A stretch of 64,000 nt of DNA from Candidatus Aminicenantota bacterium (lineage in GTDB: Bacteria > Acidobacteriota > Aminicenantia > Aminicenantales > UBA4085), in NCBI GenBank assembly GCA_003141555.1, contig PLMN01000005.1:186001-250000 (forward strand). The letters are read 5' to 3'. A program made the translations under genes and the position numbers. Positions 27,414-33,365 of the stretch are shown here, piece after piece (the stretch's first letter is position 1; each line of letters starts with the position of its first letter). The notes under the pieces are model-generated. The model was not told the DNA's origin, ran no database searches, and saw only the letters and a list, made by a program, of their open reading frames with translations.

Positions 27414-28469
27414 ATGATTTTATCGAAAGGCCCGTGTTCTCATCGCGTCGTCCCGGCCCTGGGGGCCCTCCTCTTCACCCTGGCCGCCGGGCCGCTCCGG
27501 GCCCAGCTCCTCGAAGACGAGCGCAACACCATCGAGATCGTCAAGAAGAGCAAGAACTCGGTCGTGTTCATCACCAACATCCGGCTTGAGCGGGACTGGT
27601 TCAACGAGGAGAAGGTCGCCAAGGGCACCGGATCGGGTTTCATTTGGGACGATCAGGGCCATATCGTCACGAATTTCCATGTGATCGAGGACGGCACGGA
27701 GTTCAGCGTCACCCTGCCCAGCCAGGAGCAGCGGCCGGCGAAGCTCATCGGCAAGGATGAAGCCAAGGACGTAGCCGTCCTCCAGATCCAGGGCAACCTC
27801 AAGGACCTGGTCCCGGTCAAGGTCGGCAGCTCCAAGGACCTCCAGGTCGGCCAGAAGGTCATCGCCATCGGCAACCCCTTCGGCTTCGACCACACGGTCA
27901 CGACGGGCATCGTCAGCGCCCTCGGCCGCAAGATGCTCGGCGCGGGCGACGTCACGATCCGGGACATGATCCAGACCGACGCCTCCATCAATCCCGGCAA
28001 TTCGGGGGGGCCGCTCCTCAACTCGAGCGGCGATATCATCGGGATGAACGCCATGCTCATTTCGCCGTCGGGGGCATCGAGCGGAGTCGGCTTCGCCATT
28101 CCAGTCGACATCATCAAAAACGTCGTTCCGGAGCTCATCCGCTTCGGGAAGGTGATCCGGCCCGACATCGGGGCCTCGGTCCTCCCCGACCAATACAACC
28201 AGCGGTTCGGGATCAAGGGCGCGGCGATCTTGGAAGTCGCCAAGGGGAGCGCGGCGGAAAGCGCGGGCCTGACCGGCCTCAGTCGCGACCGCTACGGCCG
28301 CCTGTTCCTCGGCGACGTCATCACCGGCCTCGACGAGGCGAAGATCGGCTCCTATGACGATCTCTACACCGCGCTCGAAACCCGGAAAATCGGGGACGTC
28401 GTGACCCTGACCGTCGAGCGGGGCGGCAAAACGCGCAAAGTCAAGATCACGCTGGTCAAGGCGGAATAG
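27414..28469 (+). CDS. HtrA/DegP-like periplasmic serine protease with one PDZ domain
   Basis: A 351-residue protein with an N-terminal signal peptide (to about residue 31, LRAQ). The trypsin-like triad is visible: His in TNFHVIED, Asp in KDVAVLQI, and Ser in GNSGGPLLN. A single PDZ domain follows (residues about 250-350: GAAILEVAKGSAAESAGL, GDVITGLDEAKI). This is the layout of DegS/HtrA proteases for periplasmic protein quality control. GGGAGGA precedes the start. It lies directly upstream of the selenoprotein cluster, separated by a long inverted repeat. Confidence 0.92.
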   Translation: MILSKGPCSHRVVPALGALLFTLAAGPLRAQLLEDERNTIEIVKKSKNSVVFITNIRLERDWFNEEKVAKGTGSGFIWDDQGHIVTNFHVIEDGTEFSVTLPSQEQRPAKLIGKDEAKDVAVLQIQGNLKDLVPVKVGSSKDLQVGQKVIAIGNPFGFDHTVTTGIVSALGRKMLGAGDVTIRDMIQTDASINPGNSGGPLLNSSGDIIGMNAMLISPSGASSGVGFAIPVDIIKNVVPELIRFGKVIRPDIGASVLPDQYNQRFGIKGAAILEVAKGSAAESAGLTGLSRDRYGRLFLGDVITGLDEAKIGSYDDLYTALETRKIGDVVTLTVERGGKTRKVKITLVKAE

Positions 28470-28480
28470 AGAGTTCAGGT

Positions 28481-28571
28481 CCCGGCGGGTGGAAAAAGGG
28501 GACACAGAACGCCGGCCAACTCAAAGCAGATAATCCTCGGGGTTCTGTGTCCCCTTTTTCCACCCGCCGGG
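28481..28571. repeat. Perfect 30-bp inverted repeat with 31-base spacer
   Basis: The arms are 28481-28510 and 28542-28571 and are exactly complementary; each contains GGGGACACAGAAC or its complement. It fills the gap between the HtrA-like gene and the first thioredoxin gene and ends 4 bases before the -35 box at 28576. It could act as a terminator for the protease (a T-run lies in the right arm) or be a non-autonomous REP-like insertion. Confidence 0.85.
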
Positions 28572-28610: not shown

Positions 28611-30128
28611 ATGAAAAAAGCACTTCTCCTGCTGATGGTGCTTGTGCTCGCCTCCGCGGCTTTCGCCCAGGCCCCGAACTGGTTCAAGGGGACGCTGGAC
28701 GAAGCGATCGCCAAAGCCAAGGTCGATCACAAGCTGGTCCTCATCGACTTTTACTCGTACACCTGAGGGGGCTGTAAACTGCTGGGTCAGCAGTTTTACG
28801 ACAACCCCAAGTTCGGCGCCTTCCTCGACAAGAATTTCGTCCTCTTCAGGGCGGTCCTCCAGGAACCTGCGGGCGACGCGATCTTCAAGAGATTCAAGAT
28901 CAACGCGACGCCCACGATCATGACGATCGGCGGGGACGGGGCCGAGGTCGACTGGACCGTCGGCTACGATCCTCCGGCCGAGACGTTCCAGGCGACGCTC
29001 CAGAAGATGGTCGACGGCGTCGACACGTTCAAGGCTCTGAGCGCGGCCTATGCCAAAAATCCCAAGGACACGGCTACGGTCTTCAAGCTGGCCCGCAAGT
29101 ACGGCGACCGATACGACACCCCGTCATCCGTAGCCAAATATAAGGAAGTCCTGGCCCTCGACCCGCAGGGCAAGGCAGGCACCTATACCCGGGAATATAC
29201 CGGCATCACCGCCACCTACACCGAGTTCGCGTCGTTCTATCTCCTGACCGGGGACAGCCCGATGGCGAAGCCGGATATGGCCGCGGTGAAGGCCTTCATC
29301 GCCAAATACCCCAAAAGCCCCCTCATCAAGTCGGCTTACGAGAATATGGCCTACTACTATGGCTACCAAGCGACCAAGGAGGAGGCGGCCGCCTTCTTCC
29401 CCGAATATCTCGCCAAGTATCCGAACGATCCCGCCGCTCTCGAAAGCTGGCTGAACCGGATCGTCCAGGACAAGGGCCCCGCCGACAAGGGCCTCGAGCT
29501 CGCCGCGAAGCTCGAGGAGCTCACGAAGTTCAATCCCCGCCCGAGCATCAACCGGGCCCTCGCCCAGGCCTACCTGCTGAAGAACGACAAGGCCAAGGCC
29601 GATAAGCTCTACGGAAAGGGCTTCATCGAGAACAAGGTCTCGAGCTTCGGCTACGAGCTCATCGGCTGGGCGAGCTACCAGGCGCAGAACGGCGGCGACC
29701 TGGAGACCGCGATCAAGATGGGCGAGACCGCCCTCAAGCTCGAGCCGGACAGCGCCTACTTCCTCGGCCAGGTGGCCGGACTTTACGTCAAGGCCAACCA
29801 GCTGCCGAAGGCCCTCCAGATCTACGGGCCGGCCTATGCCCGCAAGAACGAGAAGGACGGCACGGCGCTCTACGAGTACGCCGGCTTCTGGGCCCGCCAG
29901 GAGAAAAACCTGGACGACGCGCTCGTCGCGGCCAAGAAGGCCGTGGCCCTCGTGCCCACGGGCTACTACATCTACAACACGCTGAGCCTGGTCTACCAGA
30001 AGATGAAGAACATGCCCGAAGCGATCAAGGCGGCCGAGAAGGCCCTCGAACTCGCTCCCGACACGGCTAAGACGTTCTACAAGCAGGCCCTCGACAAGCT
30101 CAAGAACCCCGCCCCCGAAAAGAAGTAG
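28611..30128 (+). CDS. Putative selenocysteine thioredoxin-TPR protein, copy 1 (in-frame TGA at codon 52)
   Basis: The frame from the ATG at 28611 is interrupted once, by TGA at 28764-28766, and otherwise runs open to the stop at 30128 (505 residues if TGA is read as Sec). Residues 1-20 are a signal peptide ending AFAQ. A thioredoxin fold follows: KLVLIDFYSYT, then U52-G-G-C55-K in the active-site position, and a cis-proline in ATPT (P101). Residues from about 150 form TPR-like helical repeats (KALQIYGPAYARK, AAEKALELAP). A SECIS-like hairpin lies at 28774-28799. The protein is probably a periplasmic thiol/selenol oxidoreductase; its partner is unknown. A plain caller would give only a 51-residue fragment and a protein starting near 28920. 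Confidence 0.85.
28774..28799 (+). promoter_or_regulatory. Candidate bacterial SECIS hairpin, copy 1
   Basis: AAACTGCTG (28776-28784) and CAGCAGTTT (28788-28796) pair perfectly around the loop GGT; two further pairs (GT/AC) extend the stem past one bulged T. The loop begins with G and starts 18 bases after the TGA, inside the 16-37 base range known for bacterial SECIS elements. The GGTC at the apex resembles the E. coli fdhF loop. Confidence 0.78.
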
Positions 30129-30134
30129 CGCGGC

Positions 30135-30173
30135 GACCCCGGGGGGATGCGTTTCTCGCATCCCTCCGGGGTC
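30135..30173 (+). terminator. Long hairpin after selenoprotein gene 1
   Basis: GACCCCGG (30135-30142) with CCGGGGTC (30166-30173), and GGGATGCG (30144-30151) with CGCATCCC (30157-30164), form a 17-pair stem with one G-T pair and a 5-base loop. No T-run follows, so intrinsic termination is uncertain. The -35 box of the next gene starts 3 bases later. Confidence 0.5.
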
Positions 30174-30175
30174 GG

Positions 30176-30204
30176 TTGACAACCCTCTCCCCGCTTCATA
30201 GAGT
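30176..30204 (+). promoter_or_regulatory. Sigma70-like promoter of selenoprotein gene 2
   Basis: TTGACA and TAGAGT are 17 bases apart. An overlapping TATAAG at 30204-30209 is an alternative -10 box. AAGGAGAGG just before the ATG at 30221 gives this copy a normal ribosome site, unlike copy 1. Confidence 0.5.
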
Positions 30205-30220
30205 ATAAGGAGAGGGGCGA

Positions 30221-31726
30221 ATGAAAAAACTAACCATTCTGTTCGTCGTGCTTGTGCTCGCCTCCGTGGCGTTCGCTCAAAATCCCATGTGGTTCAAGGG
30301 GACGCTGGACGGAGCGATCGCCAAGGCAAAAGTCGATCACAAGCTGGTCCTCATCGATTTTTACTCCTACACCTGAGGGGGATGTAAACTGCTGGGTCAG
30401 CAGTTCTACGACAACCCCAAGTTCGGCGCCTTCCTCGACAAGAATTTCGTCCTCTTCAGGGCGATCTCCCAGGAACCCGCTGGCGAAGCAGTCTTTAAAA
30501 AATTCGGGATCGTCGGCACACCGACGACTCTAGTAATCGGCGATGATGGTGCTGAGATTGATTGGTCGGTAGGCTATCGCCCCCCAGCCGAGAGTTTCCA
30601 GGCCTTGCTCCAGAAGATGGTGAACGGCGTCGATACGTTCAAGTCCATCGGCGCCGCTTATGCAAAGAACCCCAAGGACGCGGCCCTCGCCTTCAAGCTC
30701 GCTCTCAAGTATGGCGACCGCCATGACCCCAAGAAGTCTATCGAGAAATATAAGGAAGTCCTATCCCTGGATCCGCAAGCCAAGGCCGGGACCTACACCC
30801 AGGATTATTCGAATATCACCGCCCCCTATACTGAGTTCGCCGCCCTGGCCATCGCGGCGTACACGGATAAAGACATGACCCCGCTCAAGGCCTTCGTCGC
30901 CAAATATCCCAAAAGTCCGCTGGTCAAGCAGGCTTATCGCAACATGAGCTTCTACTACGGCTACCAGGCCACCAAGGAAGAGGCCGCGCCGTTCTTCGCA
31001 GAATATGCGGCCAAGTATCCGGCCGACTCGGAGGTCCTCAACGCATGGCTTACCCGAATTAACGCGGACAAGGGCCCCTTCGAAAAAGGCATCGAACTCG
31101 CCGACAAACTCCAGGAGCTCACCTGGCCCAATCCCGATCCGAACATCAACCAGACGATCGCCCAGTTCTATATGCTCAAGGGCGACAAGGCCAAGGCGGG
31201 CGAAGTATTCGGCAAAGCGTTTATGGACGGCCAGGTACAAAATATGGCCTACAATCTCATCACCTACGCCAACTTTTGGATGGCGAACGAAGGTGATAAA
31301 GAGAACGCGGCCGACATGGGCGAGATGGCCCTGAAACTCGAGCCAGACAACAGTTATTACCGCGAACAGGTGGCCGGCATCTACCTTAAGAACAACCAGG
31401 ACGCCAAGGCTCTCCAGCTATATGGCCCGGCCTTCTCCCGGAAGAACATGGCGGACGCGATGGCGCTCGGGCAATACGCCTCATTCTGGGCACAGCAGGG
31501 CAAGAACTTGCCCGACGCGCTCGGCGCGGCCAAGAAGTCCGTGGAGTTGATGCCCGCAACATATTATCTCTATTCCACGCTGAGCACGGTCTACGACAAG
31601 CTAAAGAACAAGACTGAAGCCGTCAAAGCGATGGAGAAGGCCATTGAGCTCGCGCCAGACGCGGTTAAAGAAACGTACAAGAAGAACCTCGAGAAACTCA
31701 AAAACCCGACGCCGGATAAAAAGTAG
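30221..31726 (+). CDS. Putative selenocysteine thioredoxin-TPR protein, copy 2 (in-frame TGA at codon 52)
   Basis: The frame opens at ATG 30221, meets TGA at 30374-30376 (codon 52, the same codon as in copy 1) and continues open to 31726: 501 residues with Sec. The signal peptide ends VAFAQ near residue 20. The active site reads SYT-U-G-G-C-K and the cis-proline region VGTPTT. The TPR-like tail runs from about residue 150 to the end (ALQLYGPAFSRKN, MEKAIELAPDAV). It is clearly paralogous to copies 1 and 3 over its full length, with many third-position differences, so the duplication is not recent. A SECIS-like hairpin lies at 30386-30406 and a strong terminator follows the gene. Confidence 0.85.
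30386..30406 (+). promoter_or_regulatory. Candidate bacterial SECIS hairpin, copy 2
   Basis: Same element as copy 1: AACTGCTG pairs with CAGCAGTT around GGT, with one end pair lost because the phenylalanine codon is TTC instead of TTT. Distance from TGA to loop is again 18 bases. Confidence 0.75.
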
Positions 31727-31747
31727 AAAGAGACTCGGCTGGACTCG

Positions 31748-31781
31748 AAAGGGGACGCGCCCGCGCGCGTCCCCTTTTTTT
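31748..31781 (+). terminator. Intrinsic terminator after selenoprotein gene 2
   Basis: AAAGGGGACGCGC (31748-31760) pairs with GCGCGTCCCCTTT (31765-31777) around a 4-base loop and runs into seven T (31775-31781). This is a textbook Rho-independent terminator. Confidence 0.85.
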
Positions 31782-31840
31782 CGCCGGGAAACAGGGAAAT
31801 GGGTATTGTGTCTTCTCATGGGCAAGGTGTTCTCCCCAAG

Positions 31841-31870
31841 TTGACTTTTGGGCCCCGCTGATAATATAGT
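31841..31870 (+). promoter_or_regulatory. Sigma70-like promoter of selenoprotein gene 3
   Basis: TTGACT and TATAGT are 18 bases apart. The box ends 16 bases before the ATG at 31887, with GAGGTG as a weak ribosome site. Confidence 0.6.
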
Positions 31871-31886
31871 TCCGCCAGAGGTGCGC

Positions 31887-33365
31887 ATGAAAAAACTAGT
31901 CATCCTGACCGTCGCGCTTGTGCTCGCCTCCACGGCGTTCGCCCAGAATCCGGAGTGGTTCAAAGGCTCCCTGGACGAGGCATACGCCAAAGCCAAAGTC
32001 GATCACAAGCTGGTTCTCCTCGATTTTTCCTCCTACACCTGACCGGGCTGTAAACTGCTGGGTCAGCAGTTTTACGACAACCCCAAGTTCAAGGACTTCC
32101 TGACCAAGAATTTTGTGCTCTACCGGGTCTATACCCAGGAACCGGAGGGTCAGCTCGTCTTTAAAAAGTTCGCCATCCACGCCACGCCGACCATCCTCCT
32201 GCTCGACGGCGACGGGGCGGAGGTCGACTGGACCGTGGGCTACGATCCCCCGGCCGAGAAATTCCAGGAGCTCCTGGAGAAGATGAAGGCCGGCGGCCCC
32301 GACACCTACAAGGGCCTGGCCGCGGCCTATGCCAAGAATCCGAAGGACGTCCCGACGCTCTTCAAGTTCGCCCAGAAATGGGCCGACCGCTATGACGACG
32401 TGAAGTCCGCGGAGAAGTACAAGGCCATCGTCGCCCTCGACCCCGACGGGAAGATGGGCTTGACCGATTATCAGAAGGACAAGGTTTCCTACACCGAGCT
32501 CGCGGAGTTCAGCCTCGGCTCGAACGCGATCCGCACCCGGCCGCCGGACCCCGCCCCGCTCCAGGCCTTCCTCAAGAAGTATAAAGACGGCCAGATCGTC
32601 AAGGACGCCTATAGCCGCTTGGCCCAGGGCTTCTATGGCCGGACCGCTCCCAAAGACGAGGCCGCAAAATTTTTCGAAGATTACGCCGCCCGCTATCCGG
32701 AGGACCCGCTGGTCCTCAGCGCCTACGTGCGGCGCATTCTCCAGGACAAGGACAACCTGGACAAGGGTCTCCAGCTCGCCCGGAAGGCGGTCGATCTCGC
32801 CACGGGCGGAGCGAAAGGCAATATGCTCCAACTTCTCGCCCAGGTGTACCTCCAGAAGGGTGACAAGGCCAAGGCCGCCGATACGGCCGAGGAGATCCTG
32901 AAGGTCGCCGGCGCCGGTGTTCCCAGCATGGCGGCGATCCCGGCGGGAGAAGCGGCGCCTGCACCTCCGCCGGCGCGGGCCGACATGTCGGCCATGAACG
33001 CCGCCCGGATCTTCATCGAGGCCGACAAGCCCGATCGGGCCCTGGCGGTCTTCGGCCCCGAGTACCTCAAGAAGAACTTGGACAAGGCCCCGGCGCTGGC
33101 CTCCTACGTCACGTTCTGGCTCGGCCAGGGCAAAAACCTAGAAAGCGCCTTGGAAGCGGCCCAAAAAGGGGTCGCCCTGACGCCCGACGCCTACACGGGC
33201 TGGAACAACCTCAGCCAGGTCAATCTGAAGCTCAAGAAGTACGACGACGCGCTCAAGGCCGCCGAAAAGGCCCTCGAGCTGGCTCCCGCCCAGCCGCCCC
33301 AGATCAAGGACAACATCAGGAAATCGATCGACCAGATCAAGGCCGCGGCTCTGGAGAAGAAGTAG
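31887..33365 (+). CDS. Putative selenocysteine thioredoxin-TPR protein, copy 3 (in-frame TGA at codon 52)
   Basis: ATG 31887, TGA at 32040-32042 (again codon 52), frame then open to 33365: 492 residues with Sec. The signal peptide ends TAFAQ. The active site is SYT-U-P-G-C-K, so the residue after Sec differs from the other copies, as CGPC does in classical thioredoxin. The cis-proline segment is HATPTILLLDGDG. The C-terminal two-thirds is TPR-like (LQLARKAVDLATGG, ALKAAEKALELAP) with an Ala/Pro-rich insert around residues 350-370. This is the most diverged copy. The SECIS-like hairpin is at 32052-32072. The GTG/ATG further upstream at 31848 would only add residues before the signal peptide and was not used. 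Confidence 0.85.
32052..32072 (+). promoter_or_regulatory. Candidate bacterial SECIS hairpin, copy 3
   Basis: AAACTGCTG (32052-32060), loop GGT, CAGCAGTTT (32064-32072): identical to copy 1 although the surrounding coding sequence has diverged. The loop begins 18 bases after the TGA. Confidence 0.78.

Follow-up and report, generated by a model that had tools for sequence, protein, structure and literature searches.

The in-frame UGA codons of three tandem genes in a Candidatus Aminicenantota genome very probably encode selenocysteine (Sec), which would stand in the active site of exported thioredoxin-like (Trx) proteins that carry a long TPR tail. The case is built on sequence, in which computation shows a read-through frame under selection, an exchange between Sec and Cys among homologues, a covarying hairpin behind the UGA, the sel machinery, and linkage of the gene to sel genes. 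Trx-TPR selenoproteins, an apparently undescribed family, are common in one uncultured lineage, Candidatus Aminicenantes. The stretch of DNA that we analysed, called the window throughout, is 64,000 nucleotides long (G000:C31:186001-250000) and belongs to an assembly of 3.79 Mb that is in contigs and 97% complete.

Three tandem genes and their predicted role

An earlier note on this DNA had described a frame that runs from a signal-peptide ATG into a TGA at codon 52 and stays open for a long stretch afterwards, and read-through translation confirmed this for each of the three genes. All lie on the plus strand. Copy 1 (28611..30128) encodes 505 aa and ends in TAG, copy 2 (30221..31726) encodes 501 aa, and copy 3 (31887..33365) encodes 492 aa; the putative Sec52 codons are at 28764..28766, 30374..30376, and 32040..32042, respectively. 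Read through from the ATG codons at 28611, 30221, and 31887, each frame contains a single TGA, at codon 52, and no further stop before its TAG, with 440-453 residues beyond the Sec codon. This pattern of single-TGA frames lies far beyond chance.

In all three genes the TGA occupies the place of the first Cys of the thioredoxin CxxC, as had been claimed, and the motif reads SYT-U-GGCK in two copies and SYT-U-PGCK in copy 3. The cis-Pro motif TPT, noted earlier at the expected distance, is indeed there at residues 100-102. The N-termini, as read from the sequence, have the form of a signal peptide, MKK...ASxAFA-Q, with an AFA-Q cleavage site. Pfam searches assigned the thioredoxin part to Thioredoxin_7 (PF13899, 38.6-47.4 bits) and Thioredoxin_2 (PF13098, 35.7-47.7 bits), both above the gathering score of 27; the classical thioredoxin family PF00085 gave 23.1-23.3 bits with the window proteins, under its gathering score of 23.5. 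From there TPR repeats run to the C-terminus, forming a tail of ~350 residues. Protein identity among the three copies is 52-66%. An AlphaFold2 model has a whole-protein mean pLDDT of 80.6, with good confidence in the helical-repeat tail and low confidence in the active-site loop (pLDDT <50 at residues 50-56). Foldseek matches in the PDB are dominated by TPR superhelices, from which the thioredoxin part gets no information.

The fold, together with UxxC and the cis-Pro, implies thiol-disulfide chemistry. For the Trx domain, the NCBIfam profiles that come closest include the C-terminal parts of DsbD and TsoB, and the best thioredoxin-fold relative in the PDB by profile is 2kuc, a putative disulphide isomerase (1.5e-16). 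Taken with the fold and the modelled tail, these matches lead to the prediction of a periplasmic or envelope reductase or isomerase with a protein-binding arm. We have fair confidence in this role, i.e., that of an extracytoplasmic Sec-based thiol-disulfide reductase/isomerase whose TPR part would serve as the client-binding arm.

The mechanism that we infer covers Sec insertion, export, redox direction, a DsbD-type donor, and client binding by the TPR part. SelB, on the hairpin a few codons past the UGA, would bring Sec-tRNA(Sec) to codon 52, so that the ribosome would continue and give a product of ~500 residues, which would be exported and lose its signal peptide by cleavage. The Sec of U-x-x-C would be the attacking residue of the thioredoxin fold, which may reduce or isomerise disulfides, or related oxidised thiols, of envelope proteins, while the TPR superhelix would grip client proteins or a partner; the clients probably differ among the copies. 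The oxidised Se-S bond would probably be re-reduced via a DsbD-type relay, because several relatives have a gene for a DsbD_N-like protein next to the Trx-TPR gene.

This neighbour protein, which has a conserved Cys pair, is found near the Trx-TPR gene in the genomes G015, G017, G041, and G057. In G015, selA, selD, the Trx-TPR gene, and the DsbD_N gene lie on one strand, and selB follows within 1 kb. The order selA, selD, Trx-TPR recurs in G016 and G041, and in G057 the genes for DsbD_N, SelA, and SelB lie ahead of the Trx-TPR gene on the opposite strand. In the parts of the own genome that were fetched, no DsbD_N is close to the Trx-TPR genes. A small zinc-ribbon-like ORF (L115 5744-5956; FmdB-like by eye) is located opposite the DsbD_N gene in the sel cluster of G015.

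The location of the gene in or beside the sel cluster in several relatives would also suit a true selenoprotein with another role, e.g., in the reduction of peroxides or sulfenic acids, the handling of metals or heme, or the delivery of selenium, and Sec-thioredoxin folds do serve many chemistries. However, dithiol chemistry is favoured by the UxxC motif with its cis-Pro loop, by the Thioredoxin_2/Thioredoxin_7 fold, by the DsbD and TsoB C-terminal domains among the nearest NCBIfam profiles, and by the DsbD_N neighbour in relatives. We therefore regard such another role as possible, though rather unlikely.

Immediately upstream of the array, the window contains a gene for an HtrA/DegP-like exported trypsin-PDZ protease (27414..28469, plus strand). 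A gene of this kind adjoins the array in the only other genome of the genus, and none was seen in the flanks fetched from other genera. Between the protease gene and copy 1 is an inverted repeat (28481-28571) with 34-bp arms, 97% complementary, and a 23-nt spacer. A 19-base piece of its arm has no other occurrence in the fetched loci, and the repeat could be terminator-like or a mobile element.

Selenocysteine machinery and the hairpin behind the UGA

The earlier note had named selA, selB, selC, and selD as genes that this genome should possess, and all four were found at 48-56 kb of the contig that contains the window. SelA, SelB, and SelD gave matches of 8.6e-138, 3.1e-104, and 4.4e-108, respectively, and selC is a tRNA-Sec with a TCA anticodon (73.3 bits against a gathering score of 47). 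Another contig of the assembly, C4, carries a second tRNA-Sec-like gene (G000:C4:108362-108453; L004 1501-1592), also with a TCA anticodon, whose anticodon and variable arms approximately match those of selC and whose acceptor and T arms differ; CCA is not encoded. This gene is either a pseudogene or a second selC.

Within the class, the TGA form of the gene goes together with SelA. In a cross-tabulation of 142 genomes, counted by hand from the hit tables, both were present in 30 genomes, the TGA form only in 3, SelA only in 5, and neither in 104 (Fisher p = 3e-22). In other words, SelA occurs in 30 of the 33 genomes with the TGA form and in 5 of the remaining 109, and the TGA form occurs in 30 of the 35 SelA-bearing genomes. 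None of the 14 genomes with stop-free homologues has SelA; in a few of these 14 a TAG or TAA lies within the matched stretch and was interpreted as the natural end of the gene. Three genomes (G004, G017, and G030) have the TGA form without a SelA match, and all three are 80-86% complete. One genome, G014, was left unscored, as the sequence of its thioredoxin part consists of N only.

These counts bear on how UGA 52 is decoded, as the codon might, through a suppressor tRNA or a reassigned code, specify Cys, Trp, or a similar residue instead of Sec. A general reassignment of UGA is ruled out, since UGA is the commonest stop in the genome stretches scanned (32 of 56 long ORFs). Non-Sec decoding could find a basis in the second TCA-anticodon gene on C4 and in Cys as the alternative residue in homologues, but the TGA form tracks SelA, the maker of Sec, and a covarying hairpin just past the UGA fits SelB-directed Sec, whereas a suppressor gives no reason to expect one. 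We consider it very unlikely, and continue with the reading of the codon as Sec.

In each of the three copies, the UGA is followed by 18 nt and then by a GGU triloop closed by CUGCUG/CAGCAG, the stem extending to 8 bp. These SECIS-type hairpins are located on the plus strand at 28777..28795 (copy 1), 30387..30405 (copy 2), and 32053..32071 (copy 3). The published bSECIS model specifies a loop of 3-9 nt with G in the first two places, an upper stem of 4-16 bp, a spacing of 16-37 nt, and an MFE <= -7.5 kcal/mol (PMC13188914). The window hairpins agree with this model in their GGU loop, 8-bp stem, and 18-nt spacing, and 42 of 46 isolated hairpins of the family are at or below -7.5 kcal/mol. At the same spacing, a perfect 6-bp hairpin with a triloop starting in G follows 4 of the 783 plus-strand TGA triplets in the window, and three of the four are the family genes. 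Genome-wide, the motif CTGCTSGGTSAGCAG has four sites, one per family gene, and a control pattern has 0.

From an alignment of 28 sites, RNAalifold chose this hairpin alone, with three pairs altered on both sides; paired cells make up 98.6%, and the covariation score reaches 0.217, where slid controls stay at or below 0.038. Seven base pairs hold in all 46 distinct sequences (46/46), and the first loop base is likewise G in 46/46, the loops being GGU, GGC, GUU, GAU, or GUG. As closing pair, 33 of these sequences have G-C and 13 have C-G, and a mixed state is found in none. The Leu codons CTG and TTG occur exclusively with the Gln codon CAG, and CTC exclusively with the Glu codon GAG, so that the switch from CTG/CAG to CTC/GAG couples a silent Leu change to a forced Gln-to-Glu change. 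On a protein tree for which the hairpin codons were masked, both sides of the closing pair change about seven times, coordinately and never half-done; on well-supported branches, four of four independent switches are concordant, a number too small for a sign test at 0.05. Across 25 coding sequences, synonymous-codon identity averages 0.59 and rises to 0.83-0.88 at codons 53-64; the conservation peak spans codons 52-64. The hairpin is a clean case of an RNA base pair that settles whether Gln or Glu stands close to an active site.

Single-sequence folding in 60-nt windows gave z values of only -1.4 to -1.7, so it is covariation, rather than folding energy, that carries the case for the hairpin. 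An Rfam search over the gene array gave no match to a SECIS family; all its matches there were below the gathering score and mostly fell on the long inverted repeat.

Homologues and selection on the frame

The genome contains a fourth copy, absent from the earlier note, which also has one TGA (G000:C7:121521-123026). In the taxonomic family, as grouped by the search tool, the gene is present in 10 of 12 genomes with one TGA in every copy that spans the site, and both genomes without the gene are also without SelA. Across the class, matches were obtained in 49 of 142 genomes, and every match spanning the full profile has exactly one TGA at the site. The TGA forms of the class often come as several tandem copies, in some cases adjoining selA and selD and accompanied by a DsbD_N-type partner.

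The search for homologues with Cys at residue 52, which had been suggested as a check, returned Cys at exactly this place, in genomes without SelA. These stop-free homologues have the same Trx-plus-TPR build, with CxxC at the aligned position in those read, and are more distant, sharing 25-26% identity with copy 1. Among close full-length homologues a Cys form was looked for and not found; the Cys forms observed are the more distant ones, at ~25% identity. Outside the class, the phylum contains shorter Trx-TPR proteins in TGA and TGC forms, which coexist within a single genome in G185 and G218. A remote relative (L037) with 31% identity has U-x4-C, an identical hairpin, and SelA in the same genome.

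Other Sec-type homologues were observed as well. A second Trx-TPR group (L101-L105), from other genera of the order, has UGGCVxLD, an apparent lipoprotein signal, and ~435 aa, and its sequence after the TGA is unlike the main hairpin. A third group (L126, L131, L133, L135, L139, and L141), from elsewhere in the phylum, has UG[AS]C[KQ]KLD, ~340-360 aa, and a different candidate hairpin near GGACCGTGAYGTCC. Two longer homologues of 722 aa (L058 1501-3669 and L063 1495-3663) have a TGA read through at codon 53 and a TGA terminator, so both uses of UGA are apparent in one gene.

Downstream of the TGA and the hairpin, dN/dS is 0.10-0.36 for orthologues and near copies and 0.60 for copy 1 versus copy 3; values of 0.10-0.60 after the TGA indicate a frame under purifying selection. 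Together with the recurrence of the TGA in the class, they back the earlier argument that a TGA shared by diverged copies speaks against error or decay. In-frame stops are the usual mark of decay, but the idea that the genes are pseudogenes or assembly errors, translated only into a short peptide ending at codon 52, is hardly credible given the same TGA in dozens of genomes from two collections, a downstream dN/dS well below 1, and no second in-frame stop across 440-453 codons.

We lean towards the view that this exported Trx-TPR family is new, that it may be the principal selenoprotein of the class and a main reason why the Sec machinery has been kept, and that its embedded SECIS would dictate part of the protein sequence adjoining the active site. 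If so, it is a selenoprotein family that automatic annotation may break up, leaving a short peptide and a TPR protein without its head; it would explain why a widespread lineage of uncultured bacteria uses selenium, and it would offer a natural series of Sec and Cys homologues of the same architecture.

Comparison with known selenoproteins

A 2026 catalogue lists 119 prokaryotic selenoprotein families or subfamilies, and the thioredoxin-TPR type is not among them (PMC13188914). None of the NCBIfam selenoprotein models reaches its cut-off, and in the open-licence literature we found no description of a bacterial Trx-TPR selenoprotein and no paper linking Aminicenantes with selenoproteins. The suggestion that an exported UxxC thioredoxin with a long TPR tail is undescribed thus holds within the catalogue, NCBIfam, and this literature; with the search confined to such libraries and to papers under an open licence, a description may exist in other sources.

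Judged solely on domain and motif, the closest entry of the catalogue is the PF13098 UxxC thiol:disulfide interchange selenoprotein (WP_011366075.1, PMC13188914), which shares the Thioredoxin_2-type domain and has Sec at the first motif position. The window proteins satisfy the description PF13098 plus UxxC at the domain level only; its listing names no TPR, whereas they have a TPR tail of ~350 residues, the two being compared by description only. The Trx7/PDZ selenoprotein (NF041199) similarly contains Thioredoxin_7 within a longer fusion protein. However, it is a CxxU protein, with Sec in second place, and PDZ is its partner domain, whereas the window copies are UxxC without a PDZ match; the best score, that of the fourth copy, is 20.9 bits against a cut-off of 300.

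The best-scoring NCBIfam selenoprotein model over the Trx domain is that of the TsoB rhodanese/DsbD fusion-like selenoprotein (NF045694), with 28.6-40.3 bits for the own-genome copies against a cut-off of 805. TsoB, however, has another architecture, with two Sec listed and no TPR. The DsbD C-terminal domain is among the best-scoring disulfide-reductase profiles over the same domain, but the window proteins are without the membrane domain of DsbD and have TPR in its stead. The Sec-thioredoxin of PF00085 (UxxC) has the motif and the fold in common with the window proteins; in contrast to this classical thioredoxin, they are predicted to be exported, are fused to TPR, and score slightly under the gathering score. 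Therefore, although UxxC thioredoxin-fold selenoproteins are known, the Trx-TPR architecture appears to be new.
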